DNA of 64,000 bases from Rhizobium sp. 16-488-2b (lineage in GTDB: Bacteria > Pseudomonadota > Alphaproteobacteria > Rhizobiales > Rhizobiaceae): contig NZ_JAGHMF010000007.1 in assembly GCF_017741815.1 (NCBI RefSeq), forward strand, positions 1 through 64,000, given 5' to 3'. Positions 4,788 through 25,076 of this stretch are shown here, one piece after another; within the stretch, counting starts at the first letter, position 1; each line of letters begins with the position of its first letter. A program made the translations under genes and the position numbers. The notes below the pieces were generated by a model. The model made no database searches. It saw only the letters and a list, made by a program, of their open reading frames with translations, and had not been told where the DNA came from.

Positions 4788-5360
4788 ATGACCGATATCG
4801 ACGATTTCGCGCCGGAGCTGTTTGGCCTCTGGCCGGCTCAGCACGCTTATGACGGCGATCCCGCGCGGGCTCTCGACGTGGACAGGGCAAAGGCGGTGGC
4901 CGAGGCCTGTATGCTCGAGACCAAGTCCGCAGCATCCCCCGCCGAAGAGCTGCGGGTGCTTCTGAACGAGATGACGGCCGAGATGCGCGAGCAGTTTTCG
5001 GCCTTTCGTGATCTGCGAAGGGCAGCTGAACAGGCGGCCTCCAGCGGTGGCGACGATGCCGCCGCCAAGCTCGCCCGCGCCGACCTGAAGGCCGCGACCG
5101 ATGCCATGTCGCTGATCGTCCGCACGCTGGAGAAGATCGACCAGCTGCAGCGCCAGTTCGCCCGCGACCGCGAGCAGGCGGCCGAGGAAAGCGAAGCGGC
5201 GAGGGGGCTCGACCATGTCAAAGCGAAATTCCTCGCACGCATCGAAGAGCGAGCCGAAGCCCGCGCCCGCCAATTGCTGGCCGAATGGCAGCGCGACGGC
5301 GCTCCCCCAAACATTGACGACGGACCAGCGTTCGCCAGCCGCGAAGCCGAACCGGGTTGA
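4788..5360 (+). CDS. First GTA-cluster gene; candidate small terminase (g1 position)
   Basis: A 190-residue acidic, highly helical protein. Residues 50-170 are rich in Ala, Glu, Arg and Gln with heptad-like spacing (EELRVLLNEMTAEM, KIDQLQRQFARDRE) and look coiled-coil. I do not recognise a named domain. It sits directly before the large terminase, where the R. capsulatus GTA carries g1, its small terminase, so a TerS-like DNA-recognition role is inferred from position and helical character. ATG 4788 was chosen because the next 20 residues look protein-like. An in-frame ATG at 4710, preceded by GAGGGG, would add 26 basic, non-coding-looking residues and is the alternative start. Confidence 0.62.
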   Translation: MTDIDDFAPELFGLWPAQHAYDGDPARALDVDRAKAVAEACMLETKSAASPAEELRVLLNEMTAEMREQFSAFRDLRRAAEQAASSGGDDAAAKLARADLKAATDAMSLIVRTLEKIDQLQRQFARDREQAAEESEAARGLDHVKAKFLARIEERAEARARQLLAEWQRDGAPPNIDDGPAFASREAEPG

Positions 5361-5424
5361 GCGGCGCGTCGCGGACGCCAACACGGGCAAGGTCGCAGGC
5401 GCCTTGCTGGACTACAGTCATAAA

Positions 5425-6960
5425 ATGGATGTGATCGTGGCGAAACGGGCTGATGACCGCGCGGTAATCCTGGGTGCCGTTGCGCCTGCAGCCTCGCTGA
5501 TCGGGGCGATGTCGCAGCGGGATAGCGGGGCGGTGGCAGCGGCTGTTTCCGGTGAGGCGCCGGTGGTTGACGCTGTGACGAGCAGTGTGCCCCGGTCCGC
5601 CAACGCCAACGCCAACGCCAACGCCAACGCCAACGCCGATGTCCATGCTGGCGCCGATGTCGATACCGGCGAGCCCGAACTCTCGCCGGGCGACATGCTT
5701 GATCTTTCCGCCGAGGACCTCGCGGAACGGCTGGGGCTCTGGCCGTCGCTCGGTAATCTCTGGGCCTTCACCGGCCGCGACGAACAGCAGCCGCCGCCGG
5801 GAGACTGGCGCACATGGCTGATCATGGGCGGGCGCGGCTCGGGCAAGACGCGGGCGGGGGCCGAATGGGTGCATGCGATTGCCAGCGCCGGGCGCTCCTC
5901 GGATCTGCGCATTGCGCTGATCGCCGAAACGCTGGGCGATGCCCGCGAGGTGATGATCGACGGCATCTCGGGCATCATGCGGATCGCCCGCAGCCGTCGT
6001 CCCGAATTCGAGATCTCCCGCCGCCGGCTGGTCTGGCCGAACGGCGCGGTGGCGCAGATATTCTCGTCGGAAGATCCCGAAAGCCTGCGGGGACCGCAGT
6101 TTCATTTCGCCTGGAGCGACGAGCTCGCCAAGTGGAAGCATGGGCAGGAGACCTGGGACATGCTGCAGTTCGGCCTGAGACTGGGCAACGCACCGCGCCA
6201 ACTGGTGACGACGACGCCGCGCCCGGTGCCGCTGTTGAAGGCGCTGATATCGGACCCGACGACGCTGACGACGCGTATCAGCACCCGCGCCAATGCCCAC
6301 AACCTCGCGCCCGGCTTTATCGACGCGCTCGCCAACCGCTACGGCGGCACGCGGCTGGGGCGGCAGGAGCTGGATGGCGAGCTGATCGAGGATCGCGAGG
6401 ATGCGCTCTGGCGCCGCGAGATGTTCGATGCCGTGACGATCCGCCTTTCCGGCGATCTCCGCCGTATCGTCGTGGCCGTCGATCCGCCGGCGGCGGCGGG
6501 GGTGAACTCCTGCTGCGGCATCGTTGTCGCGGGGCTGGATGCGAGCGGCCGCGCGGTGGTGCTGGCCGATTGCTCGGTGGAGGGCGCAAGCCCGGCGGGC
6601 TGGGCGAGCGCGGTGGCGAAAGCCTATCGCCGCTTCGCCGCCGACCGCGTTGTCGCCGAGATCAACCAGGGCGGCGATATGGTGACCGCGATGCTGAAAA
6701 GCATCGACGAGACACTGCCGGTGACGACGGTGCGCGCCACGCGCGGCAAATTCCTGCGCGCCGAACCGGTGGCGGCACTCTACGAGCAGGGGCGTGTCGC
6801 CCATGCCGGGCGTTTCATGGCGCTGGAAGATCAGATGTGTGATTTCGGCCCGGACGGATTATCCCAGGGCCGCTCTCCCGACCGGCTGGATGCGCTGGTC
6901 TGGGCGCTGACGGCGTTGATGCTCGAAGGGGGAGGAGAGCCGCGTGTGCGGGGTATTTGA
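5425..6960 (+). CDS. GTA large terminase / DNA-packaging ATPase (g2)
   Basis: Motor ATPase that pumps DNA into the capsid. The Walker A motif GGRGSGKT is at about residues 135-142 of the predicted protein and is followed by RAGAEWVHA, typical of GTA and P22/HK97-type terminases. A Walker B-like FAWSDELAKWK lies near 230. The nuclease-domain acidic motifs VVAVDPP, VVAEINQGGD and SPDRLDALVWAL follow in the C-terminal half. The N-terminal roughly 130 residues before WRTWLIMGG are variable and include an Ala-Asn repeat. The frame is open from ATG 5215, which has a GAGGGG ribosome site but overlaps the upstream gene by 146 bases with shadow-like residues. ATG 5425 is therefore preferred; the start is uncertain. 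Confidence 0.9.
   Translation: MDVIVAKRADDRAVILGAVAPAASLIGAMSQRDSGAVAAAVSGEAPVVDAVTSSVPRSANANANANANANADVHAGADVDTGEPELSPGDMLDLSAEDLAERLGLWPSLGNLWAFTGRDEQQPPPGDWRTWLIMGGRGSGKTRAGAEWVHAIASAGRSSDLRIALIAETLGDAREVMIDGISGIMRIARSRRPEFEISRRRLVWPNGAVAQIFSSEDPESLRGPQFHFAWSDELAKWKHGQETWDMLQFGLRLGNAPRQLVTTTPRPVPLLKALISDPTTLTTRISTRANAHNLAPGFIDALANRYGGTRLGRQELDGELIEDREDALWRREMFDAVTIRLSGDLRRIVVAVDPPAAAGVNSCCGIVVAGLDASGRAVVLADCSVEGASPAGWASAVAKAYRRFAADRVVAEINQGGDMVTAMLKSIDETLPVTTVRATRGKFLRAEPVAALYEQGRVAHAGRFMALEDQMCDFGPDGLSQGRSPDRLDALVWALTALMLEGGGEPRVRGI
5599..5634 (+). repeat. Hexanucleotide microsatellite (GCCAAC)6 inside the terminase gene
   Basis: Six perfect tandem copies of GCCAAC, followed by one degenerate unit GCCGAT. 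It encodes alternating Ala-Asn dipeptides in the non-conserved N-terminal extension of the terminase. Because the unit is six bases, changes in copy number would keep the frame. Confidence 0.95.
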
Positions 6961-7316: not shown

Positions 7317-8003
7317 ATGGTTATCCACATCGACAGGCGTTTTTTCTTCGACACGGTGCGCGAGGCGCTGTTCAAGGGCACGCTTTCGGGCCCGCAGGTC
7401 GAGGGCATGACGGCGATTCTGAATTTCTGGGAAGCGCGGATGGCCGACGCCGACCCGCGCTGGCTGGCTTATATCCTGGCGACCGCCTTTCACGAGACCG
7501 CCTACACCATGCAGCCCGTGCGCGAGACGCTGGCGACGACGGACGCACGCGCCGTCGAGATCCTGGAAAATGCATTCGCGAGCGGCAAGCTCTCCTGGGT
7601 GAAGACGCCCTATTGGCGGCCCGACGAGGATGGCAAGAGCTGGCTCGGCCGCGGCCTGGTGCAGCTCACCCACAAGCGCAATTACGAGGCGATGAGCGCG
7701 CTCACGGGCATCGATCTCGTCGCCGAGCCGGACCGGGCGATGGAGATGGGGTCGGCGGTATCGATCCTGATCGAGGGCATGGTTCAGGGCAGCTTCTCCA
7801 AGCACAAGCTCGCCGACCATCTGAACGCGACGAATGACGACTGGATCAACGCCCGCCGCATCGTCAACGGCACCGACCGGGCCGAGAAACTGGCAGGCTA
7901 CGGCAAGACCTTCCTCGCCGCCATAAGGCCTGAGCAGCCGACGACCTGGTTCACCCGGTTGAAGCAGTGGCTGTGCCGTGGTATCGCCCGGCTTACGGGC
8001 TAA
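7317..8003 (+). CDS. Phage-type endolysin (GH19 chitinase/lysozyme-like)
   Basis: A 228-residue predicted muralytic enzyme. The GH19-like fold is indicated by ILATAFHETAYTMQPV, where Glu60 is the likely catalytic acid, by SWLGRGLVQLTHKRNYEAMS (the conserved GRG.QLT.R.NY motif), and by NARRIVNGTDRAEKLAGYG. It has no signal peptide, so it would need a holin to reach the wall. The last 20 residues are basic and amphipathic (FTRLKQWLCRGIARL). Its place between g2 and g3 of the GTA cluster suggests a lysis role in particle release. It is preceded by its own AT-rich control region. ATG 7317 is the first start in the frame. Confidence 0.85.
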   Translation: MVIHIDRRFFFDTVREALFKGTLSGPQVEGMTAILNFWEARMADADPRWLAYILATAFHETAYTMQPVRETLATTDARAVEILENAFASGKLSWVKTPYWRPDEDGKSWLGRGLVQLTHKRNYEAMSALTGIDLVAEPDRAMEMGSAVSILIEGMVQGSFSKHKLADHLNATNDDWINARRIVNGTDRAEKLAGYGKTFLAAIRPEQPTTWFTRLKQWLCRGIARLTG

Positions 8004-8031: not shown

Positions 8032-8340
8032 GTGATCCGTCACATCGTCTTCTTCACGGCGCCGATCGAAAACCTGGAGAAGGTGCGCGCCGGCTTGTCG
8101 ATCCTGACGGCCATCCCGCACGCCCGGCTGCTTGAGATCGGCACCAATGTGAAGACCGACCAGCTCGGCACCGAGGTGGATCTCGTGGTCTATGGCGAGT
8201 TCGACGACGAAGCAGCGCTGGCCGCCTACAAGGCGCACCCGAACTACCAGCTCTCCATCGACCTCGTACGCCCGATCCGCGAAATGCGCATGGCGGCGGA
8301 TTACGAGAGTGACCTGGCGGTGAAGCAGCCGCTGGGGTGA
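8032..8340 (+). CDS. Dabb (stress-responsive alpha/beta-barrel) family protein
   Basis: A 102-residue protein starting MIRHIVFFTA at GTG 8032, with AGGAG seven bases upstream. The family signature is the N-terminal IRHIVFF, the central DLVVYGEFDDEAALAAYKAHPNYQ and the final RPIREMRMAADYE. These dimeric ferredoxin-like proteins have few known roles. It follows the endolysin by 28 bases and could be co-transcribed with it. The gene is not a GTA component in other alphaproteobacteria that I know of, so it is likely cargo inserted in the cluster. Confidence 0.85.
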   Translation: MIRHIVFFTAPIENLEKVRAGLSILTAIPHARLLEIGTNVKTDQLGTEVDLVVYGEFDDEAALAAYKAHPNYQLSIDLVRPIREMRMAADYESDLAVKQPLG

Positions 8341-8510: not shown

Positions 8511-8696
8511 ATGAAGCCGATCACCTACAAGGGCTATCAGGCGTCGGTCGAGCGTCAGGATGGCACGCTGTTCATCAAGATACTGCATGTCGACGATCTC
8601 CTGCTTGCGGAGTGCGAGGATTCGAGGCTCTTGGAAGCAACTGCGCGGACGCTGATCGACGACTATATCCAAAGCCGCATCGAACTGGCCGCTTGA
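8511..8696 (+). CDS. Orphan HicB-like small protein
   Basis: A 61-residue protein beginning MKPITYKGYQASVERQDG, with ILHVDDLLLAECE and ARTLIDDYIQSR at the end. This is the layout of the partial RNase-H-like fold of HicB antitoxins (YKGY.A.VE, central beta strands, then a helix with DDYL). It lacks the C-terminal DNA-binding ribbon-helix-helix seen in longer HicB proteins, and no HicA toxin gene lies on either side. The start at 8511 has a GGGAAAGAG ribosome site. Assignment rests on fold-level similarity only. Confidence 0.6.
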   Translation: MKPITYKGYQASVERQDGTLFIKILHVDDLLLAECEDSRLLEATARTLIDDYIQSRIELAA

Positions 8697-8826
8697 TCTT
8701 TACCGCCACTGTTCCAGCGCGCCGCAAACGCACCGGTTGCTGCCGCGTGCATGTTTTCGGTTTTAATTCAACCTGAAGTCGGATATTCCCATTGGGTTGG
8801 GAAAACAGACGTTTCAGGAGATAAAA

Positions 8827-9237
8827 TTGAAGATCATGGTGATGACGGCGGCGCTGCTGCTTTCGGGCGCGGGCTTGGCTGAGGCGGCTTCCTGCGAGGC
8901 GAATTTCAAAGTGTCGGGCGTGCCGATGGTGACGGCGCTGAGCTACAAGACGTGGCAGGAGTTTCCGAAGGCGAAATCCGCCGCCGTCTTGAAGAACCTC
9001 GCCCAGGCGGTCGCCGCCGAGGGCTTCTCCGGCATCAAGGTCAACAAGGAGCTCTCCTCGGTGGACGCCTTCCAGGAAACGACAGGCAGCGGCCGCATCC
9101 AGACCCTGCGCGTCGTCGCCCGCCAGAAGGGTTCAGGCGTGCGCGTCGATGCCGTCTTCGATATCCAGGCAGGCCAGCTGACCACCAAGGAAGTGGTGCG
9201 CACCGGGCTTTGCAACATCATCGGCTCGGCGCTCTGA
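8827..9237 (+). CDS. Secreted protein of unknown function
   Basis: A 136-residue protein with a signal peptide: MKIMVMTAALLLSGAG followed by LAEAAS, cleavage likely after AEA. The mature part is small and basic, with two cysteines (near the mature N-terminus and near the C-terminal LCNIIG), which could pair in the periplasm. TTG at 8827 is the preferred start because AGGAG lies just upstream; an in-frame ATG at 8797 lacks a ribosome site and ATG 8836 is an alternative. I do not recognise a domain. It sits between the HicB-like gene and the GTA portal gene and has its own hairpin after the stop. Confidence 0.72.
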   Translation: MKIMVMTAALLLSGAGLAEAASCEANFKVSGVPMVTALSYKTWQEFPKAKSAAVLKNLAQAVAAEGFSGIKVNKELSSVDAFQETTGSGRIQTLRVVARQKGSGVRVDAVFDIQAGQLTTKEVVRTGLCNIIGSAL

Positions 9238-9401: not shown

Positions 9402-10559
9402 ATGAACCTTCGATCTCTCCTGCCGTGGGGCTCCGCGGCGGGCCGCACATCTGTGCCCGAACGAAAAGCCGCGGGAGGCTTCTTGTCGCTGACCTCGGAG
9501 GGTAGGGCGAGCTGGACAGGCCGCTCCTACGCGGCCTTGTCGCGCGAGGGCTTCATGCGCAATCCGGTCGCGCATCGCTGCGTGAGGATGGTCTCGGAGG
9601 CGGCAGCCTCGGTGCCGCTGCTGCTCTACGAGCAGGATCGCGAACGGCCGGACCACCCGCTGCTGCATCTGCTGCGCCAGCCGAATGCCCGCATGAGCGG
9701 CCCCGATTTCTTCGAGGCGCTCTATGGCCATCTGCTGCTGTCCGGCAATGCCTATGTCGAGCCCGTCGAGATCGGCGGCGCGCTGCGCGAACTGCATCTG
9801 CTGCGTCCCGACCGTATCGGCATCGTCGAGGGCCGCGACGGCTGGCCGGAAGCCTATGACTACCGCGCCGGCGGCCTCGTCCGCCGCTTTCCCGTCGAGA
9901 CCGACGGGCTCGGCCTGCTGCACCTGAAACTCTTCCACCCGCTCGACGATCATCTCGGCTTTCCGCCGCTCGCAGCCGCTCAGGTGGCGCTCGATCTCTC
10001 CAATGCGGCGGCGACCTGGAACAAGGCGCTACTCGACAACTCCGCGCGCCCTTCCGGCGCGCTCGTCTACCAGCCCAGGGAGGGTGGCAATCTCTCGCCG
10101 GACCAGTATGAGCGGCTGAAGCAGGAGCTCGACGAGGGCTATTCCGGCCCGATGCGCGCCGGCCGGCCGCTGCTGCTCGAAGGCGGGCTCGACTGGAAAT
10201 CGATGGGGCTCTCGCCCAAGGACATGGACTTCGTCGAGGCCCGCAATGGCGCCGCCCGCGACATCGCGCTCGCCTTCGGCGTGCCCCCCATGCTGCTCGG
10301 CATCCCCGGCGACAACACCTACGCCAACTACCAGGAAGCCAACCGCGCCTTTTATCGCCTGACGGTGCTGCCCATGCTGACCCGCACGCTGGCGGCGCTG
10401 TCGAGTTGGGCGGCGGCAGGCTATGGCGACGGGCTGCGGCTGGAGCCGGATCTCGACAAGGTCGCGGGTCTCTCCGCCGAGCGCGGCGAGCTCTGGAAAC
10501 GCGTGGGCGAGGCGGCGTTTCTGACGGATGAGGAGAAGCGGCAGGCGGTGGGGTATTGA
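9402..10559 (+). CDS. GTA portal protein, HK97 family (g3)
   Basis: A 385-residue portal protein: forms the dodecameric ring at the capsid vertex through which DNA passes. Family features are RNPVAHRCVRMVSEAAASVP near residue 50, LLRQPNARMSG, LYGHLLLSGNAYVE, and the HK97-portal C-terminal block with FGVPPMLLGIPGDNTYANY and EANRAFYRLTVLP. Length is normal for GTA portals. The start at 9402 has a CAGGAAA ribosome site. The next conserved GTA gene (prohead protease) is about 1.2 kb away because a toxin-antitoxin pair and a small membrane gene lie between. Confidence 0.93.
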   Translation: MNLRSLLPWGSAAGRTSVPERKAAGGFLSLTSEGRASWTGRSYAALSREGFMRNPVAHRCVRMVSEAAASVPLLLYEQDRERPDHPLLHLLRQPNARMSGPDFFEALYGHLLLSGNAYVEPVEIGGALRELHLLRPDRIGIVEGRDGWPEAYDYRAGGLVRRFPVETDGLGLLHLKLFHPLDDHLGFPPLAAAQVALDLSNAAATWNKALLDNSARPSGALVYQPREGGNLSPDQYERLKQELDEGYSGPMRAGRPLLLEGGLDWKSMGLSPKDMDFVEARNGAARDIALAFGVPPMLLGIPGDNTYANYQEANRAFYRLTVLPMLTRTLAALSSWAAAGYGDGLRLEPDLDKVAGLSAERGELWKRVGEAAFLTDEEKRQAVGY

Positions 10560-10587
10560 GTGGGGCGACATTGAGGCCCGCTTCGAA

Positions 10588-10612
10588 ATTTGTTATACAC
10601 CGTATTACAAAT
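10588..10612 (+). promoter_or_regulatory. Palindromic operator/promoter of the RHH-RelE pair
   Basis: ATTTGTTATAC (10588-10598), ACC, GTATTACAAAT (10602-10612): the arms match at 10 of 11 positions. The palindrome lies 15 bases before the antitoxin ATG and contains TATAC/GTATTA elements suited to a -10 box, so antitoxin binding would block transcription, the standard autoregulation of such pairs. Confidence 0.65.
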
Positions 10613-10626
10613 CGAGGAGCAAGCCG

Positions 10627-10887
10627 ATGACCAAGCCCGTTCTCTCCGACCCGATTGCCCTGCGCATTCCAGAAGACATGTTGAAGGACATCGAGACCAT
10701 CGCCAAGGCCACCGACCGCAGCCGCAGCTGGGTCATCGTCCGGGCGTTGAAATATTATCTGATGGAAGAGGGGAATGATGTTCTGCAGACGCTGAAGGGC
10801 GAAGAGCAGATCCGCAATGGCGAGACCGTCGATTTCGAGGAGTTCATGCGGGAACTGACATCCTCTCCCAGAGATGACGCGGCATGA
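10627..10887 (+). CDS. Ribbon-helix-helix antitoxin of a RelE/ParE-type system
   Basis: An 86-residue antitoxin. The N-terminal half reads IALRIPEDMLKDIETIAKATDRSRSWVI, the beta-strand plus two helices of a CopG/RelB-type ribbon-helix-helix DNA-binding domain. The acidic C-terminal tail (NGETVDFEEFMREL) is the usual toxin-wrapping region. The ATG at 10627 has AGGAGC upstream. It overlaps the toxin gene by four bases (ATGA), so translation is coupled. It is expected to neutralise the toxin and bind the palindrome at 10588-10612. Confidence 0.88.
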   Translation: MTKPVLSDPIALRIPEDMLKDIETIAKATDRSRSWVIVRALKYYLMEEGNDVLQTLKGEEQIRNGETVDFEEFMRELTSSPRDDAA

Positions 10888-11192
10888 TGAAGGTCATTCT
10901 TTCCAAGGATGCCGCGGACTATCTCAGCCACGAATATGGCTATCTGAGCGCGTTCAATTCCCGCGCTGCCGACGCCGCCATGGCGCGAATTCAGGGCGGC
11001 ATCAGAAGGCTTGCCGCCTATCCCCAGATCGGCGCTCCCGTACCCATGTTGACAGGACGCCGTCAGCTGGTCGTCGGCCCCTATATCATCACCTACCGTA
11101 TCGGCCGTGATGCCATCATGGTCTCCGACATCACGCATGGCAGGCAGCGCGAGCAACTGGACAGGGACGACGGGCTCGACGAGAGCGACTGA
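10884..11192 (+). CDS. RelE/ParE superfamily toxin
   Basis: A 102-residue toxin of the RelE/ParE fold: KDAADYLSHEYGYLSAFN, then the helix IQGGIRRLAAYPQIGAPVP, then the strands RRQLVVGPYIITYRI and DAIMVSDITHGRQ. The LAAYPQIG and Y.I.YRI..D.I.V..I.HGRR pattern is the family signature. Whether it cleaves ribosome-bound mRNA (RelE) or poisons gyrase (ParE) cannot be read from sequence; the YRI...HGR block is more ParE/YoeB-like. Start is the first of two ATGs, overlapping the antitoxin stop. The pair separates g3 from g3.5 of the GTA cluster. Confidence 0.87.
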   Translation: MMKVILSKDAADYLSHEYGYLSAFNSRAADAAMARIQGGIRRLAAYPQIGAPVPMLTGRRQLVVGPYIITYRIGRDAIMVSDITHGRQREQLDRDDGLDESD

Positions 11193-11399
11193 CGCGTCAC
11201 GAGTATCGCCCGTGTTTTGAACCTTGTTTGGCCGACCTCATCGACAATTGATTCATCGTGTGAACCGCCGGACTCAATCTTGGAGCGGCTGTCCGCAACA
11301 GATTCAAAAGACAGCAGAATTGAACCGGCTGCTGCATCGCTGCCGCGGAAGACGCGCATTTCGCGCACACCCACACCCACACCACAAAGGCCCAAACCA

Positions 11400-11717
11400 A
11401 TGGCCGACTTCTCCAACGACACCAGCCTCTGGGCGACCAGGGCACTGGGCGCGTCGGCGGGTGCCGCCGTGTCGCTGATCTATCTGCTGCCGAAGAGCCG
11501 GCGCGAGGCGGCGAGCCGGTTCTTTACCGGGCTTTCCTGCGGCATCGTCTTTGGCGGCCCGACGGGGATCTGGATCGCCGAGCGGCTGGATCTGGTCGAT
11601 CGGCTCTCTGCTGTCGAAGTGATGCTCTCGGGCTCGGCCGCCTCCAGCCTCTGTGCCTGGTGGGGCCTCGGCATTCTCCAGCGCATCGCCGGCCGATACG
11701 GCGCCCGCAACCGGTAA
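11400..11717 (+). CDS. Small membrane protein at the GTA g3.5 position (DUF6107-like)
   Basis: A 105-residue protein with two to three hydrophobic segments (ALGASAGAAVSLIYLLP; FFTGLSCGIVFGGPTGIWIA; and near SAASSLCAWWGLGIL). It lies between portal and prohead protease, where alphaproteobacterial GTA clusters carry orf g3.5. From memory, rhizobial homologues are filed as DUF6107; this was not checked. The frame extends upstream to 11217 but ATG 11400 begins the protein-like sequence MADFSNDTSLWATRA. Role unknown; it might be a membrane factor for head assembly or lysis. Confidence 0.7.
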   Translation: MADFSNDTSLWATRALGASAGAAVSLIYLLPKSRREAASRFFTGLSCGIVFGGPTGIWIAERLDLVDRLSAVEVMLSGSAASSLCAWWGLGILQRIAGRYGARNR

Positions 11718-11750
11718 GCCGGCCAGCCACAAAACCATGAAACGAGGAGC

Positions 11751-12365: not shown

Positions 12366-12389
12366 ACCTTCACAAAGGATGATCCCGCA

Positions 12390-17318: not shown

Positions 17319-17404
17319 GGTGTGGATTTCGGCGAAGGGAAGGGATCGAAGCGGTCGTAGCATCTTCGCCGTCAGGTTGAAAGTGACAAGTCGATGACAT
17401 CGCG

Positions 17405-17429: not shown

Positions 17430-17447
17430 CGTGGAAGGGACGAGGCC

Positions 17448-17855
17448 ATGGTGGCGCAGAAGGGCAAGGATCTGCTGTTGAGGGTTTTCAACGGCACGGA
17501 TTATGAAACGGTGGCGGGGCTGCGTTCGAAGCGGCTGGCCTTCAATGCCGAGACGGTGGATGTGACCGATGCCGAGAGCGCCGGGCGCTGGCGCGAGCTT
17601 TTGGGTGGCGCCGGCGTGCAGCGGGCTTCGGTATCGGGTTCAGGCATCTTCAAGGATGCGGCCTCCGACCAGCTGGTGCGCAACGCCTTCTTCAATGCCT
17701 CGATCCTGAGCTGGCAGATCGTCGTGCCGGATTTCGGCAGCGTCACCGGTCCGTTCCAGGCAAGCGCGCTCGAATATTCCGGCCAGTATAATGGCGAGGT
17801 GATGTTCGGGCTGGCGCTGGAATCGGCGGGCGCTATCATCTTCGAGGCGCTGTGA
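17448..17855 (+). CDS. GTA major tail protein, TP901-1 family (g9)
   Basis: A 135-residue tail-tube protein: MVAQKGKDLLLRVFNGTDYETVAGLRSKRL, then AETVDVTDAESAGRWRELLGGAGVQRASVSGSGIFKDAASDQ, and WQIVVPDFGSVTGPFQASALEYSGQYNGEVMF. This is the phage major tail protein TP901-1 pattern, with GKDLLL, the NAETVDVT core and E.SG..NGE at the end. The ATG at 17448 follows GGGACGAGG; an upstream in-frame start at 17394 would run through the terminator hairpin and is unlikely. The stop overlaps the start of g10 (TGATG). Confidence 0.92.
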   Translation: MVAQKGKDLLLRVFNGTDYETVAGLRSKRLAFNAETVDVTDAESAGRWRELLGGAGVQRASVSGSGIFKDAASDQLVRNAFFNASILSWQIVVPDFGSVTGPFQASALEYSGQYNGEVMFGLALESAGAIIFEAL

Positions 17856-18232
17856 TGGCGGCCCGCACGGCAGTGGAACAAGTGGCAGGGCGAAGGGGCA
17901 ATCGGCGGCGTGGTGAGATCGAGGCTGAGATCGACGGCGAGCGGCGGGTTCTGTGCCTGACGCTGGGGGCCTTGGCGGAGCTTGAGACGGCGTTTTCGGT
18001 CGATAGCTTGAATGGGCTGGCCGAGCGCTTCTCCGGCGGCCGGCTGAAGGCGGCGGATATGATCCGCATCATCGGCGCCGGCCTGCGCGGCGGTGGCAAT
18101 CTCTATTCCGACGAGGATGTGGCGGAGGCCGATATCGAGGGCGGCATTGGTGGTTATGCGGCGATCGTCGGCGATCTGCTGACCGCAACGTTTTCGGGGC
18201 ATGGCGCGGACGCCTCCGCGCGCCCCCTCTAG
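17855..18232 (+). CDS. GTA gp10 family tail assembly chaperone (g10)
   Basis: A 125-residue protein with RGEIEAEIDGERRVLCLTLGALAELETAF at residues about 19-47 and LKAADMIRIIGAGLRGGG, YSDEDVAEADIEGGIGGY further on. The R/GE(IE)..IDG..R.LCLTLGALAELE opening is diagnostic of the GTA-gp10 family (Phage_TAC_11). It is thought to help assemble tail protein around the tape measure. It overlaps g9 and ends 11 bases before g10.1. Confidence 0.9.
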   Translation: MAARTAVEQVAGRRGNRRRGEIEAEIDGERRVLCLTLGALAELETAFSVDSLNGLAERFSGGRLKAADMIRIIGAGLRGGGNLYSDEDVAEADIEGGIGGYAAIVGDLLTATFSGHGADASARPL

Positions 18233-18243: not shown

Positions 18244-18489
18244 ATGGAGACGACGGACAATGCGGGGCCAACGCCATTCCCCTGGGCGCGGGTTCTGCAT
18301 GTCGGTCTCTGCCTGCTGCGGCTTCCCCCGCAATCCTTCTGGGCGATGACGCCGGTGGAGTTTCACGCCGCCGCCGGTGGCCTCTTGCCGCCGCGTCCCG
18401 CCGTCTCCCGCGCCGATCTCGATGGGCTGATGGCCCGTTTTCCGGACAGCCGGGCAAGCTTAGACACGAGGAACGACCATGACCGATGA
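18244..18489 (+). CDS. rcc01693-type tail assembly chaperone (g10.1)
   Basis: An 81-residue protein containing PFPWARVLHVGLCLLRLPPQSFWAMTPVEFHAAAGGL, the signature of the rcc01693 family (small GTA gene between g10 and g11). It ends with DLDGLMARFPDSR, and its last codons overlap the tape-measure start by 11 bases. As in tailed phages, a pair of small genes before the tape measure suggests a chaperone role (inference). Confidence 0.88.
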   Translation: METTDNAGPTPFPWARVLHVGLCLLRLPPQSFWAMTPVEFHAAAGGLLPPRPAVSRADLDGLMARFPDSRASLDTRNDHDR

Positions 18490-19024
18490 CCAGACGGACC
18501 TCTCCGCCATGACCGACGAGGCGGCGACGCTGCGGCGTGCGCTGGACGATCTGGAGGGCCGCTCGCGCTCCTTCGGCTCGGCACTGTCTGGGGCGCTGCG
18601 CAGCGCGGTCTCGGGCGGAAAGGGGCTGGACGATGTGCTGCGCGGGCTGGCCAATCGCATGACGGATATCGCGCTGCAGGCGGGGTTGAAGCCGCTGGAG
18701 ACGATGCTTTCGGGTGCCGCCTCCAGCCTCCTCGGCGGCGCCGGCAAGCTGCTGCCTTTCGCCGATGGAGGTGTCGTCTCGCAGCCCACCTACTTTCCTC
18801 TCGGCGGCGACATGGGGCTGATGGGCGAGGCGGGCAGCGAGGCGATCCTGCCCTTGCGGCGCGGCGCCGACGGTTCGCTCGGCGTCGCCGCATTGGGCGC
18901 GGGGACCGCACCGCAGATCGTCTTCAACGTCACCGCGACGGATGCCGAGAGCTTCCGAAAGAGCGAGGCGCAGATTTCCTCGATGCTGGCGCGCACCGCA
19001 ATGCGCGGTCAGCGCAACCTGTGA
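18479..19024 (+). CDS. Short tape measure protein (g11)
   Basis: A 181-residue tape measure protein, very short compared with phage tape measures but normal for GTA particles with small tails. Residues 20-60 are helical (LRRALDDLEGRSRSFGSALSGALRSAV), followed by the hydrophobic ALQAGLKPLETMLSGAASSLLGG and a conserved C-terminal part with PFADGGVVSQPTYFPLGGDMGLMGEAGSEAILPLRRG, which is found at the end of many phage tape measures. The start overlaps g10.1. Confidence 0.9.
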   Translation: MTDDQTDLSAMTDEAATLRRALDDLEGRSRSFGSALSGALRSAVSGGKGLDDVLRGLANRMTDIALQAGLKPLETMLSGAASSLLGGAGKLLPFADGGVVSQPTYFPLGGDMGLMGEAGSEAILPLRRGADGSLGVAALGAGTAPQIVFNVTATDAESFRKSEAQISSMLARTAMRGQRNL

Positions 19025-19036
19025 GGATCAGAACAG

Positions 19037-19678
19037 ATGGCAACCGGTTTCCACGAAGTGCGCTTTCCGCTCCGCCTGTCGCTGTCGACGAGTGGCGGGC
19101 CTATCAGGCGCACCGATATCGTCAATCTCTCCAATGGCCGCGAAAGCCGCAACAGCCGCTGGCGCGATGCGCGCCGCAGCTATGATGCGGGCTCCGGCCT
19201 GCGCTCGGTGGCGGATCTCTACGAGGTCTTGGAGTTCTTCGAGGCCCGTAGCGGCGAGCTCTATGGCTTCCGCTTCCGCGATCCGATCGATTGCACCTCG
19301 ACACGGCCCGGCGCTGAGATCGGAGCGGGCGACCAGCCGATCGGGATCGGCGACGGCGTGACGGGCTCATTCCCGCTCGCCAAGACCTATGGCGATGCCG
19401 GAGCCAGCAGCACGCGGCGGATTGAGAAGCCCGTCGAGGGCTCGGTCGTCGTCGCGGTGGATGGCGTGCTGCAGGCGTCGTCCGCCTTCGTGTGCGACCC
19501 CACGACCGGCATCGTCACCTTCGCGGTGGATGCCGTTCCGCCAGAGGGTGCGTCGGTGACGGCGGGGTTCCTGTTCGACGTGCCGGTGCGCTTTGCGACC
19601 GGGCGCATCGACGTCAACCTCTCGGCCTTCAATGCCGGGCGCATTCCCACCATTCCGCTGATGGAGATCATGCCATGA
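19037..19678 (+). CDS. GTA distal tail protein, DUF2460 / TIGR02217 family (g12)
   Basis: A 213-residue baseplate protein: FHEVRFPLRLSLSTSGGPIRRTDIVNLSNGRESRNSRW at the start (the R.P..IS.G..GGP...T.IV.L.SG.E.RN..W family motif), SYDAGSGLRSVADLYEVLEFFEAR, LYGFRFRDPIDCTS, GSFPLAKTYG, and FDVPVRFATGRIDVNLSAFNAG. In the R. capsulatus GTA the equivalent protein forms the distal ring joining tube and hub. It overlaps g13 by four bases. Confidence 0.93.
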   Translation: MATGFHEVRFPLRLSLSTSGGPIRRTDIVNLSNGRESRNSRWRDARRSYDAGSGLRSVADLYEVLEFFEARSGELYGFRFRDPIDCTSTRPGAEIGAGDQPIGIGDGVTGSFPLAKTYGDAGASSTRRIEKPVEGSVVVAVDGVLQASSAFVCDPTTGIVTFAVDAVPPEGASVTAGFLFDVPVRFATGRIDVNLSAFNAGRIPTIPLMEIMP

Positions 19679-20565
19679 GGCATATTCCGGACGCGCTCGC
19701 CGCGCATATCTTGGGCGACGCCACGACGCTCTGCCACGCCTGGCGGGTGACGCGCCGCGATGGCGTCGTGCTTGGCTTTACCGAACACGATCACGACCTG
19801 ACCTTCGCGGGCACCACCTTCCTGGCGGCGAGCGGCTTTTCCGCCAGTGCGGCGGAAGAGGAGACGGGGTTGCTGGCCGCCACCAGCGATGTCGCCGGCG
19901 GCTTCTCCAGCGCGGCGATCACCGAGGAGGATCTGACGCGCGGCCGCTATGACGGCGCCCGCGTCGAGGTCCATCTCGTCAACTGGGCGGACCCCGAGCA
20001 GAATATGCTCCTGAAGGTGCAGGAGATCGGCGATGTCACGCGCGACGCCGGCCAGTTCCAGGCGGAGCTGCGCAGCTTCGCCAGCCGCCTTGGCGAGCCG
20101 CAGGGCCGCGTCTATGGCCGGCGCTGCGACGCCACGCTTGGCGATCAACGATGTGGCGTCGATCTCTCGGCGCCCGCGATGCGCGCCGAAGGCGTCGTGG
20201 TCGAGGTCGCGGATGCCAGCCGGCTTGTGCTCTCGGGTATCAGGGCCGTGCCCGACGGCTTCTTCCGTTTCGGCGTGCTAGGTTTTCTCGACGGCGACAA
20301 TCAAGGCCAGCGGTTGGAGATCGAGACGCATGCGGCGAAGGACGGTTTGCTGGAGGTGACCCTCTGGCTGCCGCTCGACGCCACCCCAAATGCGGGCGAC
20401 CGCGTCGTGCTCACGGCGGGCTGCGACAAGGCCTTTTCCACCTGCCGAACGAAGTTCGCCAACCACCTGAATTTTCGCGGTTTCCCCCACATCCCCGGCA
20501 CCGATTTCGCCTACACCTACGCCGATGGCGAGACCCTTCACGACGGGAGCGCGCTGTTCAAATGA
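19675..20565 (+). CDS. GTA hub protein with four-cysteine domain, DUF2163 / Phage_BR0599 (g13)
   Basis: A 296-residue baseplate hub protein. The N-terminal half carries TLCHAWRVTRRDGVVLGFTEHDHDL, typical of DUF2163. The C-terminal BR0599-like domain has four cysteines (151, 160, 250, 257) in GRRC, QRCGVDL, GCDK and STCRTKFANHLNFRGFPHIPG. In the related lambda tail protein L the equivalent cysteines bind an Fe-S cluster, so a cluster here is a reasonable inference. The ATG at 19675 overlaps the g12 stop; the 3' end overlaps g14 by four bases. Confidence 0.92.
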   Translation: MRHIPDALAAHILGDATTLCHAWRVTRRDGVVLGFTEHDHDLTFAGTTFLAASGFSASAAEEETGLLAATSDVAGGFSSAAITEEDLTRGRYDGARVEVHLVNWADPEQNMLLKVQEIGDVTRDAGQFQAELRSFASRLGEPQGRVYGRRCDATLGDQRCGVDLSAPAMRAEGVVVEVADASRLVLSGIRAVPDGFFRFGVLGFLDGDNQGQRLEIETHAAKDGLLEVTLWLPLDATPNAGDRVVLTAGCDKAFSTCRTKFANHLNFRGFPHIPGTDFAYTYADGETLHDGSALFK

Positions 20566-20996
20566 CCGACATTGCAATGGAAGTGCTGCGGCTGGCCGAA
20601 GGCTGGATCGGCACGCCCTACAGGCACCAGGCTTCGCTCAAGGGCGTCGGCTGCGATTGTCTCGGGCTGATCCGGGGTATCTGGAGGGAGCTTTACGGGC
20701 AGGAGCCGGAGCGCCCACCACCCTATGCGCCGGATTGGGCCGAACGCGGCGGCGGGGATCGGCTGATGGAGGCCGCACTCCGGCATTTCGGCCCGCCGCT
20801 GCCGCTTGTCAAGGCGAGGCCCGGCGACGTGATTCTGTTCCGCTGGCGCCCGCAGCTCGCCGCCAAGCATGCCGGTATCCTCTCGGGCGAGCGGCAGTTC
20901 ATCCATGCCTACGAGCAGGCGGCGGTGGTGACCTCGCCGCTGGTGCCGAGCTGGCGCCGACGCATCTCGGGCGTCTTTCGTTTTCCGGAGAGATAG
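20562..20996 (+). CDS. GTA NlpC/P60 cell-wall peptidase (g14)
   Basis: A 144-residue tail-tip peptidase expected to cut peptidoglycan when a particle injects DNA. Catalytic residues are visible: Cys33 in GVGCDCLGLIRG and His103 in AAKHAGILSG. GWIGTPYRHQAS at residues 13-24 and KARPGDVILFRW are conserved in the NlpC/P60 family from GTAs and phages. It lies between hub (g13) and megatron (g15) genes exactly as in R. capsulatus. The stop is followed at once by the g15 ATG. Confidence 0.93.
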   Translation: MTDIAMEVLRLAEGWIGTPYRHQASLKGVGCDCLGLIRGIWRELYGQEPERPPPYAPDWAERGGGDRLMEAALRHFGPPLPLVKARPGDVILFRWRPQLAAKHAGILSGERQFIHAYEQAAVVTSPLVPSWRRRISGVFRFPER

Positions 20997-23900
20997 ATGG
21001 CAACGCTCCTCTTCCAGGCCGCTGGCGCGGCACTCGGCAGCGTCTTCGGCCCTGTCGGCGCGATCATCGGCCGTGCGGCGGGCGCGCTTGCTGGAAGCGT
21101 CGTCGATCGCGCGCTGATCAACGGCCGCTCCACCGTGCGCGGCGCGCATCTGGCGAGCGCCCGCATTCCAGGCGCCGACGAGGGCACGGCGATCAACCGC
21201 GTCTATGGCAGTGTGCGCGTCGGCGGCACGCTGATCTGGGCGACGCGCTTCGAGGAGGAGGTGACCAGCGAACGGCAGGGCGGCAAGGCCACCGGCGGCA
21301 CCCGCGTCGAGAGCTTCCGCTACTTCGCCAATCTCGCGGTCGGTCTGGCGGAAGGGCCGATCGGGCATGTCAGGCGCGTCTGGGCCGATGGCAAGGAACT
21401 GGATCTGACGAGGATCGAGATGCGCGTCTATCGCGGCGACGAGGCGCAGCTGCCCGATCCGCTGATCGAGGCCAAGCAAGGGGCCGGCAATGCGCCCGCC
21501 TATCGCGGACTTGCTTACGTCGTCTTCGAGCGGCTACCGCTCGATGCCTATGGAAACCGCATTCCGCTGCTGCAGTTCGAGGTCGTGAGATCGGTCGGCG
21601 AGCTGGAAAATGAGATCAGGGCCGTCTGTATCATCCCCGGCTCGACCGAGCATGGCTACCAGCTGGTGCAGGTCTCGGAGAGCATCGGCGCCGGCAGCGC
21701 CCGCATTCTCAACCGCAACAGCCTGCGCGGCACGAGCGATTGGGATATCTCGATCGACGAGCTCATGGCGCTCTGCCCCAATCTCGAGCGTGTTGCGCTC
21801 GTCGTCTCCTGGTTCGGCACCGATCTGCGCGCCGGCCAATGCCGCGTGGTGCCCGGCGTCGAGGTGGCGAGCCGCGCGGAGGAAAGCAGGCCGTGGTCGG
21901 TCTCCGGCATCGCGCGCGAGGCTGCCCATCTCGTCAGCCGCAGCAATGGCGGCCCGGCCTATGGCGGCACGCCCGATGATGTCAGCGTGCTGTCGGCGAT
22001 TGCCGATCTCAGGAGCCGTGGTCTCAAGGTCTATCTCTATCCCTTTGTCATGATGGATATTCCCGCCGACAACGCCCTTGCCGACCCTTATGGCGGTGAG
22101 CGCCAGGCGTCCTATCCCTGGCGCGGCCGCATCACCTGTGATCCTGCGCCGGGGCGGCCTGCTAGCGTCGATCGGAAGGCGGCCGTGCGCGGGCAGGTGC
22201 AGGCCTTCGCCGGCAATGCGCAGGCGGGCGATTTCACGATTGCGGGCGGCCATGTGGTTTATCATGGTGGCGAGGAGAGTTACCGGCGTTTCATCCTGCA
22301 CTATGCGCAGCTGGCGCGTCTTGCCGGCGGGGTCGATGGCTTCCTGATCGGCTCCGAGCTTCGTGGCCTGACGCAGCTGCGCGATGGCGGCGATGCCTTT
22401 CCCTTCGTCGAGGCGCTGGTGCGGCTGGCGGGCGACGTCAAGGCGCTGCTGCCGGCCGCCAAGATCACCTATGGCGCCGATTGGAGCGAGTATTTCGGCT
22501 ATCACCCGGCTGATGGCAGCGGCGACGTCTATTTCCATCTCGATCCGCTTTGGGCCTCGTCTGACATCGATGCAGTCGGGATCGACAACTACATGCCGCT
22601 CGCCGACTGGCGCGACGACGATCTGGCCAGCGCCAATCCCGACGGCTTCCGGCTTGCCGATGATCGAAATGCGCTGACGGCGGCGATCACTAGCGGCGAG
22701 GGTTTTGGATGGTACTACGCGGATGGCGATGCCCGCAAAGCCCGGCAGCGCAGCCCGATCACCGATGGTCTCGCCGGCAAACCTTGGGTCTTCCGCTACA
22801 AGGATATCGCCGCATGGTGGGCCAATCCGCATTATGAGCGCATTGGCGGCGCAGAGCGCGCGGCGCCCACGGCATGGGTGCCGTCGGGCAAGCCGATCTG
22901 GTTCACCGAGCTTGGCTGCGGCGCCGTCGACAAGGGCGCCAATCAGCCGAATGTCTTTGCCGATCCGAAGTCGGTGGAAAGCGGGGCGCCGTATTTCTCC
23001 ACCGGCATGCGCTCGGACAGCATGCAGCGCCGCTTTCTCGAAGCGCACCATCTCTGGTGGGCCGACGATGATGCGCCCGCCGGCATGGTCGATCCCTCGC
23101 ATCTCTTCGTCTGGTGCTGGGATGCGCGGCCGTTCCCGGCCTTTCCGTTGGCAACGGATATCTGGTCCGACGGCGGAAATTGGCGCACCGGGCACTGGCT
23201 GAACGGTCGGCTCGGCGCCGGCACTCTGGCCGATATCGTAGCGGTGGTGCTGCGCGATCATGGATTCTCCGATTTCGATGTCACCGAAGTGAGCGGCGAC
23301 CTGATCGGTTACGTCAAGGGCGAACTCGGCTCGGCCCGCGACCTGATCGAACCGCTGCTGCAGGCATTCCAGATCGATGCCTTGGAAGATGCCGGCCTCC
23401 TGCGCTTCCGCTCGCGCACACGCGCCAGCCTGCCGGCGATGCGGATCGAAACGCTCGTCGACAGCGAGAACGAACCGCTCTGGCAGGAGACACGCGGCCA
23501 CGACAGCGACTTCGCCGCCGAGGCGGTGGTGACCTTCTACAATCCCGATCTCGACTACGAGCAGGCCAGCGCCCGCTCGCACCGCGCCGGGCAGGCGACG
23601 AGCCGACAGATCAAGCAGGATCTGCCCGCCGTGCTTTCCGAAGAGACGGCGCTGGACGCGGCCGAGGCGCTGCTGCGCGACAATCGCATCGCCCGCCGCT
23701 CGCTGCGCTTCTCGCTGGCGCCGGGCCGGCTGGACGTGCAGCCGGGCGACGTCGTCTCGCTGACCGATGGTCCCGATGGCCGCTTCCTGGTCTCGCGCAT
23801 CGAGGATGGTGATGCCCGCCGCATCGAGGCGCGGGCGTTTGCACCATCTTCAGGCGGCGCTCCGCCTGCCGTAACCGATGGCCGAAATGGCGGCGGCACC

Positions 23901-24842
23901 GCCTCGAACCTGTTCAAGCCGGTCGTGCATCTGATGGATCTGCCGCGCTTCGACGGCGAGGCGGCGACGAGCTTCGCGCGAGCCGCGGTGTTCGCAAAGC
24001 CCTGGCGCACCGTCGGCCTGTCGTCATCGGCGACGACGGAGGGATATCGGGGCAGGGTGGTGCTAGACCGTCCGGCAACGATGGGGACTCTTGTGTCCGC
24101 ATTGGCACCCGGCGTCACCGGCCGTTTCGACTGGTCCGAGCCGCTGATCGTCGATCTCGCTTACGGCGAACTGTCCTCGGCGGCCGAGATAGCGGTGCTG
24201 AACGGCGCCAATCGGCTGGCGGTGCGCTCAGTGAGCGGCGTGTGGGAGATCCTGTCTTTCCTGCAGGCCGAAGAGATCGCGGCCGGGCGATGGCGGCTCG
24301 GCGGGTTGCTGCGCGGGCTTGCGGGCACCGAGGATGCGATGGTCTTGGGCATTCCCGAGGGTGCGGCGGTCGTGCTGCTCGACGAGGCGGTCAGGCCGCT
24401 CGGGCTGCGTAGCGACGAGGCCGGCCTGTCGCTCAACTGGATCGCCGAGGCGGCCGGTTCACTTACCATGGCGGGATCGTTCGTGTTCGCGGGCGGCCTG
24501 CGCGCAGAGACACCGCTCGCCCCGGTGCATCTGCGCTGCCGACGCACGGATGCCGGCGATGCCGTGATCTCCTGGACAAGGCGCGGACGCGACAATGCCG
24601 ACAGCTGGACCGGCGCCGACATTCCGCTCGACGAACCCTTTGAACGCTACCGGGTCGAGATACTCGACAGCGCCGACATCGTGGTCCGGGCGGTGGAGGT
24701 CGGGACGCCGGAATGGACCTATCCGCTCGCCGACGAAATGCTCGATTTCGGCGGGCGGCAGACGAGCCTTGCGGTGACGATCCGCCAGCTTGGCGAGCGC
24801 GTGCCGCTGGGATTGCCCGCCCGGGCGAGCTTTCAGACGTGA
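20997..24842 (+). CDS. GTA megatron / host-specificity tail protein with TIM-barrel domain (g15)
   Basis: A 1281-residue multidomain tail-tip protein. The N-terminus has Gly/Ala-rich hydrophobic helices (LLFQAAGAALGSVFGPVGAI) then INRVYGSVRVGGTLIW and SFRYFANLAVGLAEGPIGHVRRVWADG, as in phage tail-tip J-like proteins. A glycoside-hydrolase-like TIM barrel (GTA_TIM) spans roughly residues 300-750, with LVSRSNGGPAYGGTPDDVS, YPFVMMDIP, WSEYFGYHP, DYMPL-like IDNYMPLADWRDD and WFTELGCGAVDKGANQPN. A Phage-tail_3-like domain follows (about 800-960), with further beta domains to the end. It probably forms the spike and receptor-contact part of the particle. Confidence 0.93.
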   Translation: MATLLFQAAGAALGSVFGPVGAIIGRAAGALAGSVVDRALINGRSTVRGAHLASARIPGADEGTAINRVYGSVRVGGTLIWATRFEEEVTSERQGGKATGGTRVESFRYFANLAVGLAEGPIGHVRRVWADGKELDLTRIEMRVYRGDEAQLPDPLIEAKQGAGNAPAYRGLAYVVFERLPLDAYGNRIPLLQFEVVRSVGELENEIRAVCIIPGSTEHGYQLVQVSESIGAGSARILNRNSLRGTSDWDISIDELMALCPNLERVALVVSWFGTDLRAGQCRVVPGVEVASRAEESRPWSVSGIAREAAHLVSRSNGGPAYGGTPDDVSVLSAIADLRSRGLKVYLYPFVMMDIPADNALADPYGGERQASYPWRGRITCDPAPGRPASVDRKAAVRGQVQAFAGNAQAGDFTIAGGHVVYHGGEESYRRFILHYAQLARLAGGVDGFLIGSELRGLTQLRDGGDAFPFVEALVRLAGDVKALLPAAKITYGADWSEYFGYHPADGSGDVYFHLDPLWASSDIDAVGIDNYMPLADWRDDDLASANPDGFRLADDRNALTAAITSGEGFGWYYADGDARKARQRSPITDGLAGKPWVFRYKDIAAWWANPHYERIGGAERAAPTAWVPSGKPIWFTELGCGAVDKGANQPNVFADPKSVESGAPYFSTGMRSDSMQRRFLEAHHLWWADDDAPAGMVDPSHLFVWCWDARPFPAFPLATDIWSDGGNWRTGHWLNGRLGAGTLADIVAVVLRDHGFSDFDVTEVSGDLIGYVKGELGSARDLIEPLLQAFQIDALEDAGLLRFRSRTRASLPAMRIETLVDSENEPLWQETRGHDSDFAAEAVVTFYNPDLDYEQASARSHRAGQATSRQIKQDLPAVLSEETALDAAEALLRDNRIARRSLRFSLAPGRLDVQPGDVVSLTDGPDGRFLVSRIEDGDARRIEARAFAPSSGGAPPAVTDGRNGGGTASNLFKPVVHLMDLPRFDGEAATSFARAAVFAKPWRTVGLSSSATTEGYRGRVVLDRPATMGTLVSALAPGVTGRFDWSEPLIVDLAYGELSSAAEIAVLNGANRLAVRSVSGVWEILSFLQAEEIAAGRWRLGGLLRGLAGTEDAMVLGIPEGAAVVLLDEAVRPLGLRSDEAGLSLNWIAEAAGSLTMAGSFVFAGGLRAETPLAPVHLRCRRTDAGDAVISWTRRGRDNADSWTGADIPLDEPFERYRVEILDSADIVVRAVEVGTPEWTYPLADEMLDFGGRQTSLAVTIRQLGERVPLGLPARASFQT

Positions 24843-24866
24843 CATTTCAACCGAAGGAGAAGGACG

Positions 24867-25076
24867 ATGCCTGATTTGAAAAACTGGTACAGCTCGAAGA
24901 CCATCTGGGGCGCGGTCGTTGCGATCCTCGCTTCGGCTTTGCACTTTACGGGTGTGGATATCGCATCCGGCGATCGCTCTCAGATCGTCGATGCGATCGT
25001 CAACATCGCCGGCGCGCTGGGGGGGCTGCTGGCGGTCTATGGCCGGGTGACGGCGAAGTCGGCGATCAAGCCCTGA
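24867..25076 (+). CDS. Holin-like small membrane protein
   Basis: A 69-residue protein starting MPDLKNWYSSKTIWGAVVAILAS, with two hydrophobic stretches (GAVVAILASALHFTGVDIA; IVDAIVNIAGALGGLLAVYG) separated by a polar turn and a basic tail (RVTAKSAIKP). The opening KNWYSSKTIWG resembles small phage proteins annotated as holin or holin-like. It is the last gene of the GTA transcription unit, 24 bases after g15, with AAGGAGAAGG upstream. With the endolysin at 7317 it could form a lysis pair; this is inference. Confidence 0.75.
   Translation: MPDLKNWYSSKTIWGAVVAILASALHFTGVDIASGDRSQIVDAIVNIAGALGGLLAVYGRVTAKSAIKP

Follow-up and report, generated by a model that had tools for sequence, protein, structure and literature searches.

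Why do gene transfer agents (GTAs) persist, and do they have interests of their own? A locus of Rhizobium sp. 16-488-2b raises this open question in a concrete form: what are toxin-antitoxin (TA) modules doing between the genes of such a particle? The locus occupies positions 4788-25076 of the window, i.e. of the whole stretch of 64,000 nucleotides that was analysed (contig NZ_JAGHMF010000007.1). Profile searches of the window proteins with Pfam, NCBIfam and PHROGs identify it as a GTA cluster of the RcGTA type (the GTA of Rhodobacter capsulatus), in which g2, g3, g3.5 and g4-g15 follow one another in the standard order, every frame being open. The GTA itself is of a known kind; what would be new is a resident, polymorphic TA specificity locus, parDE, inside a GTA cluster. 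We lean, with some reserve, towards the joint reading that the cluster is a vertically inherited, regulated RcGTA-type GTA of Rhizobium and that ParDE is a resident, polymorphic specificity locus of this maintained GTA rather than a passing hitchhiker.

The module lies between the portal gene and g3.5:

9402-10559, forward strand: g3, portal protein (family match)
10589-10611: palindromic operator-like site TTTGTTATAC-ACC-GTATTACAAA, 15 bp upstream of the parD start
10627-10887, forward strand: parD, ribbon-helix-helix (RHH) antitoxin of 86 aa, A allele, with a constant N-terminal half and a variable C-terminal half
10884-11192, forward strand: parE, toxin, A allele (Pfam ParE)
11400-11717, forward strand: g3.5 (DUF6107, family match)

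The parD and parE genes overlap by 4 bases. The sequence-only reading that preceded this analysis had called them a RelE/ParE pair; the RHH antitoxin and the toxin stand, the latter being ParE according to Pfam. An RHH antitoxin gene overlapping a parE gene, with a palindrome upstream, is what this module shares with type II ParDE systems. Unlike an ordinary ParDE, it sits in a series of GTA head genes and occurs as two allele classes that cross species borders while keeping a constant DNA-binding half.

The core comparison comprises 62 genomes of the genus. A capsid orthologue at 74% identity or more was sought in 120 genomes, source genome included, and found in 26, which form the GTA-bearing part; the other part consists of 36 of the 94 GTA-less genomes, read over about 9 kb upstream of a response regulator gene (about 5 kb in G044; such numbers designate genomes). 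At the family level, 145 of 199 genomes have a capsid match at E<=1e-90, and the loci were read in 40 of the 85 genera with a capsid match; many of these 40 GTA clusters are compact and some carry inserts. The g3|g3.5 junction harbours parD in 16 genus loci, without toxin in G043 and without recognised ParE in G030, and parDE is also found in two family loci (G221 and G295). The operator-like site, in the form TTTGTTATAC-NNN-GTATTACAAA, is present within 3 mismatches in 15 of the 16 parD loci of the genus and in the two of the family, and is found neither in the 36 GTA-less loci nor in 100 shuffles of the window; it is decayed in G043, in which no parE was found next to parD.

Three pairs of close relatives (G000/G015, G037/G057 and G038/G093) oppose an A and a B allele of ParDE, the last two being sister pairs with a support of 1.00 in the species tree, which holds 57 taxa. 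For these pairs, in that order, the synonymous divergence (dS) of parE reaches 1.46, 1.62 and 1.86, and the ParE proteins are 33%, 42% and 34% identical; dS is 0.22, 0.09 and 0.38 for g3 and 0.24, 0.11 and 0.28 for g3.5. Residues 1-46 of ParD, the DNA-binding half, are 98-100% identical between classes, against 51-59% for the toxin-binding rest. DNA identity falls in the middle of parD and is restored before or at g3.5; the G038/G093 pair also differs in the g3-parD stretch, by an insert with an AlkB-type gene. The ParE tree, for which G064 and G093 were re-read (the rows of G064, G093 and G030 in the first identity matrix were not used), groups the sequences by allele, each class having members of all three species groups. 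Approximately unbiased (AU) tests reject trees that keep together G037+G057 (p 0.003), G038+G093 (2e-62) or the members of the species clade G000+G015+G065+G032 (2e-80). The ParD/ParE classes are split by sharp borders and alternate between closely related species. Within a class, the ratio of non-synonymous to synonymous substitution rates (dN/dS) is low. More generally, in comparisons with up to seven close relatives (genes missing or less than 80% covered in a relative being left out), dN/dS of the window genes does not exceed 0.37 where comparable, the exception being ParE across allele classes (0.56-0.65).

The main rival is introgression without selection, as part of a neutral explanation in which the junctions g2|g3, g3|g3.5, g5|g6 and g8|g9 would be a safe harbour that tolerates inserts, the TA modules being mobile cargo. 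We judge it possible but somewhat unlikely. Unrelated cargo does recur at the same junctions: a gene of an AlkB-type 2OG-Fe(II) oxygenase (Pfam) occupies the g3|parD or g3|g3.5 gap in 9 of the 26 genus GTA loci, and other open reading frames look, by eye and without family scan, sulfatase-, GGDEF-, kinase- and SRPBCC-like. Furthermore, relatives of the TacT toxin described below occur in 3,353 plasmid records, nearly all at less than 60% identity, and the orientation bias of TA modules compared with other cargo is not significant (p 0.2). However, ParDE has no close relative among the 72,556 plasmids searched (the best ParE-A and ParE-B matches reach about 36% and the best ParD match 49%), nor was any match to ParD or ParE-A found in 50,697 phages. 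ParE of type B at 50% identity or more was found in the GTA slot only, in 6 of the 62 genomes searched, all else being at 40% or less. The conservation of the operator-like site beyond the genus and the low dN/dS within a class also speak against a neutral harbour, as does the concentration of TA modules: four TA families have 8, 2, 1 and 1 copies in the source genome, and 2 of these 12 copies lie in a cluster that represents 0.31% of the genome, where 0.04 would be expected (P 7e-4, the families having been chosen after they were seen). Segments of this region do move, as indicated by G064, in which some 5 kb reaching from g3 to g7 (about 9,570-14,830 in window terms; L003/L029), parDE included, are mostly 90-97% identical to the window in a background of about 80%, identity falling to about 75% over the dispersed repeat. 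This size is near the fragment size of about 4 kb reported for GTAs (PMC7363004).

Several points weigh against residence and long-kept polymorphism. Ten of the 26 GTA loci have no TA module at all, and the TA is therefore dispensable. ParDE loci in general might commonly show an A/B polymorphism, the comparison having covered GTA-slot loci only, and the same tree would be expected, with no balancing selection at all, if alleles had entered repeatedly by introgression from unsampled lineages. The search for type A covered plasmids and phages only, the genome-wide search of relatives being that of type B. The AU groups were taken from the species tree, but the ParE tree was already known when they were tested, and G000 and G015, although close, are not sisters in the species tree.

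The other TA modules, i.e. hicAB (a truncated orphan hicB here), TumE/TumA and TacAT, come and go, and in this ParDE differs from them. Those of the window are:

8511-8696, forward strand: orphan hicB, C-terminally truncated, 61 aa (PHROG 7e-5), in slot 1, which extends from the lysin gene to g3
15331-15606, forward strand: tacA, antitoxin (TacA1 family, 1e-19), in slot 3, between g8 and the major facilitator superfamily (MFS) gene
15610-16116, forward strand: tacT, GNAT toxin (4e-9)

In slot 1, mostly after the Dabb gene, G064 and G093 carry hicAB and four loci HicB alone, and modules of the TumE/TumA type are found in five genus loci, two of them before Dabb. The orphan HicB-like gene announced by the sequence-only reading is indeed HicB-like, but corresponds to the N-terminal half of HicB only, the C-terminal half and hicA being absent, whereas HicA precedes HicB at the same place in G064 and G093. 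HicA also adjoins HicB in L192 (R. metallidurans DSM 26575), where hicAB, AlkB, parDE and tacAT are all present in the GTA cluster and no MFS gene separates g8 from g9. Slot 3 holds tacAT in five genus loci, with the composition of TacAT systems (a TacA-type antitoxin, then a GNAT toxin) in the window and a dS of 0.8-1.4 relative to G028 and G093. Among the 40 family loci, tacAT lies at g8|g9 in two (G130 and G202) and at g2|g3 in one (G311), and TumE/TumA is reversed in G202. Even among the close relatives of the window, the TA combination varies.

TA modules are present in 16 of the 26 GTA loci and in 0 of the 36 GTA-less loci of the genus. A second, named set consists of Dabb-bearing loci from the best 80 of 461 relatives and overlaps the genus set, so that the two are not independent; there, TA modules are present in 11 of 24 GTA loci and 0 of 55 GTA-less ones. 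This restriction to GTA-bearing loci is in line with the proposal of the sequence-only reading that TA modules could stabilise the cluster against deletion, as addiction devices would, and so is a decay series in the G008 clade, which is devoid of TA. However, loci with TA break too. Grossly broken or relic loci amount to 2 of 16 with TA (G065 and G081) and 5 of 13 without, a difference that is not significant (Fisher p=0.19, without account of kinship, as for all our Fisher tests) and is clumped on the tree; with single-gene interruptions added, the counts become 5 of 16 (G022, G030 and G015 in addition) and 6 of 13 (G097 in addition). The gap is small, TA presence does not significantly predict an unbroken cluster, and no protection is visible; moreover, TA modules are themselves lost, as testified by the orphan hicB and by the orphan parD of G043. 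Stabilisation of the whole cluster by TA modules is possible but unsupported, and we consider the addiction explanation unlikely.

Phages are known to carry morons, and ParDE, HicAB, TumE/TumA and TacAT could likewise be defence cargo that acts against phages. The turnover of alternative TA modules in fixed slots resembles that of the variable defence hotspots of prophages and P2/P4 elements (PMC9122126), which also have foreign genes in fixed junctions of phage genes. Here, unlike in prophages, the host of the cargo is a domesticated GTA unable to spread itself, and ParDE is resident, not mobile. As none of the eight cargo proteins of the window, the only cargo scanned, matches a PADLOC model at E<=0.001, a defence role seems doubtful to us. 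Finally, the TA genes might be co-transcribed with the GTA and arrest the growth of producing cells before lysis. All four TA types of the genus loci are co-oriented with the GTA genes, but ParDE has its own operator-like site, one family-level module is reversed (in G202) and the orientation bias is not significant. This coupling of particle release to growth arrest, also suggested from the sequence alone, is unproven and in our opinion very unlikely.

The cargo is not of one class: among the loci compared, TA modules are found in GTA loci only, whereas three other inserted genes are old residents that stay when the GTA is deleted around them:

7317-8003, forward strand: endolysin, GH19-like (PHROG 2e-32; Pfam GH19 slightly under cut-off)
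8032-8340, forward strand: Dabb-domain protein (family match)
16104-17318, reverse strand: MFS transporter, antiparallel, at the g8|g9 junction (family match)

Dabb is kept in all 36 GTA-less loci of the genus, lysin in 20, MFS in 19 and GTA relics in 3; 16 loci show lysin-Dabb-MFS, 1 lysin-Dabb, 16 Dabb only and 3 lysin-Dabb-MFS with GTA fragments. Left-flank markers were seen in 19 of these loci and not within the stretch read in the other 17. The named set comprises 23 loci with GTA, 1 with a cut-off GTA, 6 with relics (R. tibeticum, R. sp. CF122, R. mesoamericanum, two R. mongolense and R. sullae), 49 clean loci and 1 unresolved; 25 of the clean loci retain lysin-Dabb-MFS (e.g. R. johnstonii 3841) and 24 Dabb only (e.g. 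R. tropici). Since MFS sits at the g8|g9 junction and lysin-Dabb at g2|g3, at least two separate deletions that spared them are needed to leave this footprint. In the 36 GTA-less loci the three frames are open wherever present, and the 11 pairs tested give a dN/dS of 0.03-0.25 for them following GTA loss; judging from these ratios, the lysin is under purifying selection after GTA loss. Dabb, lysin and MFS would serve the host and persist through GTA deletion. These footprints, of which the excerpts of PMC7363004 make no mention, make it possible to recognise a former GTA in genomes that now lack one.

Is the GTA itself maintained and regulated? A gene with the DUF6456 domain (GafZ-type) was found in all 26 genomes of the genus that have the GTA and in only 1 of the 36 that lack it, the lone exception, G029, having GTA relics. 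It is single-copy in the source genome, and among the control genomes the family was found in Caulobacter only. In the two loci examined (source genome and G049), a gene with a DnaA-C domain (Bac_DnaA_C) directly precedes it. GafY resembles domain IV of DnaA, GafY and GafZ match the two ends of GafA (PMC9632790), and the GafZ of Caulobacter is an anti-terminator (PMC11150451). The DUF6456 gene and its DnaA-C neighbour therefore indicate that the GTA has its expected regulator. In the source genome, a MucR/Ros regulator gene (L043 20-448) lies just upstream of this GafY/GafZ-like pair, on the same strand. Loss of the regulator goes with loss of the GTA, and this distribution of the DUF6456 gene suggests that the Rhizobium GTA is probably live; the co-loss is evidence that it is regulated and in use. 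A decaying prophage remnant might be invoked instead, since some relatives have decayed (G052, G102, G112, G001 and G029), but this is highly improbable: every GTA gene of the window is open, with low dN/dS, the GafZ-type gene is co-retained in all 26 GTA genomes, and the right flank is the same, with the response regulator downstream, in all 23 of the 26 genus loci whose contig extends that far (the contig ends first in 3). On the left, the HD-GYP-like gene or its neighbours are seen in 15 of the 26 loci and not in the stretch read in 11.

The other features of the locus and its edges are:

3086-4468, reverse strand: HD-GYP-like gene, left neighbour, named by reading the sequence, without family scan
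4788-5360, forward strand: g1-position gene, 190 aa, all-helical model, with a small-terminase role suggested by position
5425-6960, forward strand: g2, large terminase (Pfam Terminase_6N/6C), start codon uncertain
8797-9237, forward strand: predicted secreted protein, in some genus loci only
11751-12365, forward strand: g4, prohead protease (S78, family match)
12390-13646, forward strand: g5, major capsid protein (family match)
13749-13863: core of a dispersed palindromic repeat, between g5 and g6
13923-14492, forward strand: g6, head-tail connector (family match)
14492-14827, forward strand: g7, head completion protein (family match)
14824-15246, forward strand: g8 (Tail_completion_gp17 family match)
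17404-17430, forward strand: hairpin with T-run, terminator-like, before g9
17448-17855, forward strand: g9, tail tube (family match)
17855-18232, forward strand: g10 (GTA-gp10 family match)
18244-18489, forward strand: g10.1, tail assembly chaperone (family match)
18479-19024, forward strand: g11, RcGTA-type tape measure (PHROGs; NCBIfam 4.5e-43, under that model's own cut-off)
19037-19678, forward strand: g12 (DUF2460, family match)
19675-20565, forward strand: g13, baseplate hub (family match)
20562-20996, forward strand: g14, NlpC/P60 (family match)
20997-24842, forward strand: g15 (GTA TIM barrel, Rcc01698_C, family match)
24867-25076, forward strand: holin-like small protein (PHROG 6e-5)
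25273-26246, forward strand: conserved 82-aa gene (25273-25521) and response regulator, marking the right edge whether or not a GTA is present
25575-27639: two-component pair (family match), right neighbour of the cluster

The cluster covers about 20 kb, with other genes inserted among the GTA genes: lysin, Dabb, the truncated HicB and the secreted protein at g2|g3, ParDE at g3|g3.5, the dispersed repeat at g5|g6, TacAT and the reversed MFS gene at g8|g9. The structural series includes g10.1 between g10 and g11, and g10.1 and g11-g15 were placed by family match. The complete gene order split by four cargo blocks, as described from the sequence alone, is confirmed and is kept in the non-deleted clusters of the genus, so that the scattering over unrelated loci in close relatives that would have spoken against this description is not observed; the endolysin, the holin-like gene, Dabb, the TacA1 and GNAT pair and the MFS gene announced there are each borne out by family matches. 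The g1-like gene is conserved at the expected position, but its protein has no match in Pfam, PHROGs or NCBIfam, and its predicted model (pLDDT 72, pTM 0.39) has no match in the PDB at E<=0.001; position and conservation in relatives suggest that it is g1. No family was found for the secreted protein in the same three databases. The repeat, called RIME-like from the sequence, is dispersed through the 6.5 Mb genome, where 77 or more segments match it, both strands counted (40 of 80 candidates scored); it may be a RIME. The terminator-like hairpin is also present in 3 of 5 relatives examined (G043, G015 and G028), and a consensus scan of the window for sigma-70 promoters and terminators gave no better result than shuffles. 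General family scans revealed no integrase family among the cluster proteins scanned, which together with the fixed host flanks fits vertical inheritance. The 82-aa gene has no Pfam or PHROG match and adjoins the response regulator in 36 of 36 GTA-less loci.

In the genus, four of the 26 clusters are grossly broken (G052, G065, G081 and G102), among them G081 by a g5 frameshift and G065 by about 39 kb inserted in g5. This insert (C5:243156-282045) enters the capsid gene close to its 3' end, 17 bases of capsid sequence overlapping on both sides, as if an integrative element used g5 as its site. Single-gene interruptions, real or due to sequencing error, affect g1 in G015, g3.5 in G022 and G097, and g3 in G030; short g10.1 in relatives and short g10 in G032 (match without stop), which probably reflect differing starts, were not scored as breaks. 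In the species tree, lineages without a GTA are interspersed among those that have one, at three places or more. G000 has a second portal gene and a distant capsid gene (C51:275126-276091 and 273119-273940), probably those of a prophage.

Likened from its genes alone, the GTA of the window shares with RcGTA and with the GTA of Caulobacter crescentus (CcGTA) the g2-g15 order, the tape measure, the TIM-barrel g15 and the GafY/GafZ-like pair; it differs in that the latter clusters span about 14 kb (PMC9836097, PMC11150451), against about 20 kb in Rhizobium, where host genes and TA modules are inserted between head and tail genes. That the GTA clusters of Agrobacterium have a lysozyme gene flanked by terminase and portal is already published (PMC11409702). 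The Rhizobium cluster shares it and adds Dabb and MFS; the excerpts of that paper describe no TA slots. A GTA has been reported in Rhizobium grahamii (PMC6117902), as has GTA loss from nodulating Rhizobiales (PMC7363004), and both are consistent with a same genus-level GTA with patchy loss; the excerpted texts of these two papers mention neither lysin-Dabb-MFS footprints nor TA slots. In the open-access library searched, we found no GTA cluster described as having a TA specificity locus that is both resident and polymorphic, and nothing relevant on TA inside GTA clusters or on balancing selection or trans-species polymorphism of TA.

Returning to ParDE as a resident specificity locus, the following course of events may be proposed. 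The GTA would have been invaded at a few fixed junctions, and a GafY-GafZ-like pair encoded elsewhere would, by analogy with Caulobacter, switch on the whole cluster and read through cargo terminators such as the hairpin at 17404. ParD would repress its own operon via the operator-like site and would neutralise the ParE of its own class only. Recombination that replaces or deletes the slot would then leave a stable toxin without its antitoxin, so that replacement would be penalised; this penalty would resist overwriting and favour rare alleles, both classes being kept. We tentatively put forward, as a rather unlikely but attractive extension, that ParDE is a compatibility locus, with two toxin classes under balancing selection and older than the sampled species, which decides survival when a GTA segment is overwritten by DNA of the other class, perhaps GTA-borne. 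If this is true, ParDE would be a bacterial self/non-self system inside a domesticated virus.

Two deeply different versions of ParE and of the toxin-binding half of ParD, amid flanks that differ little, hint at a long-standing conflict or at a compatibility function in particle genes. With its conserved operator-like site, constant DNA-binding half and two old specificity classes, a TA locus resident among GTA genes would offer a natural experiment on whether a domesticated virus behaves selfishly or discriminates kin.

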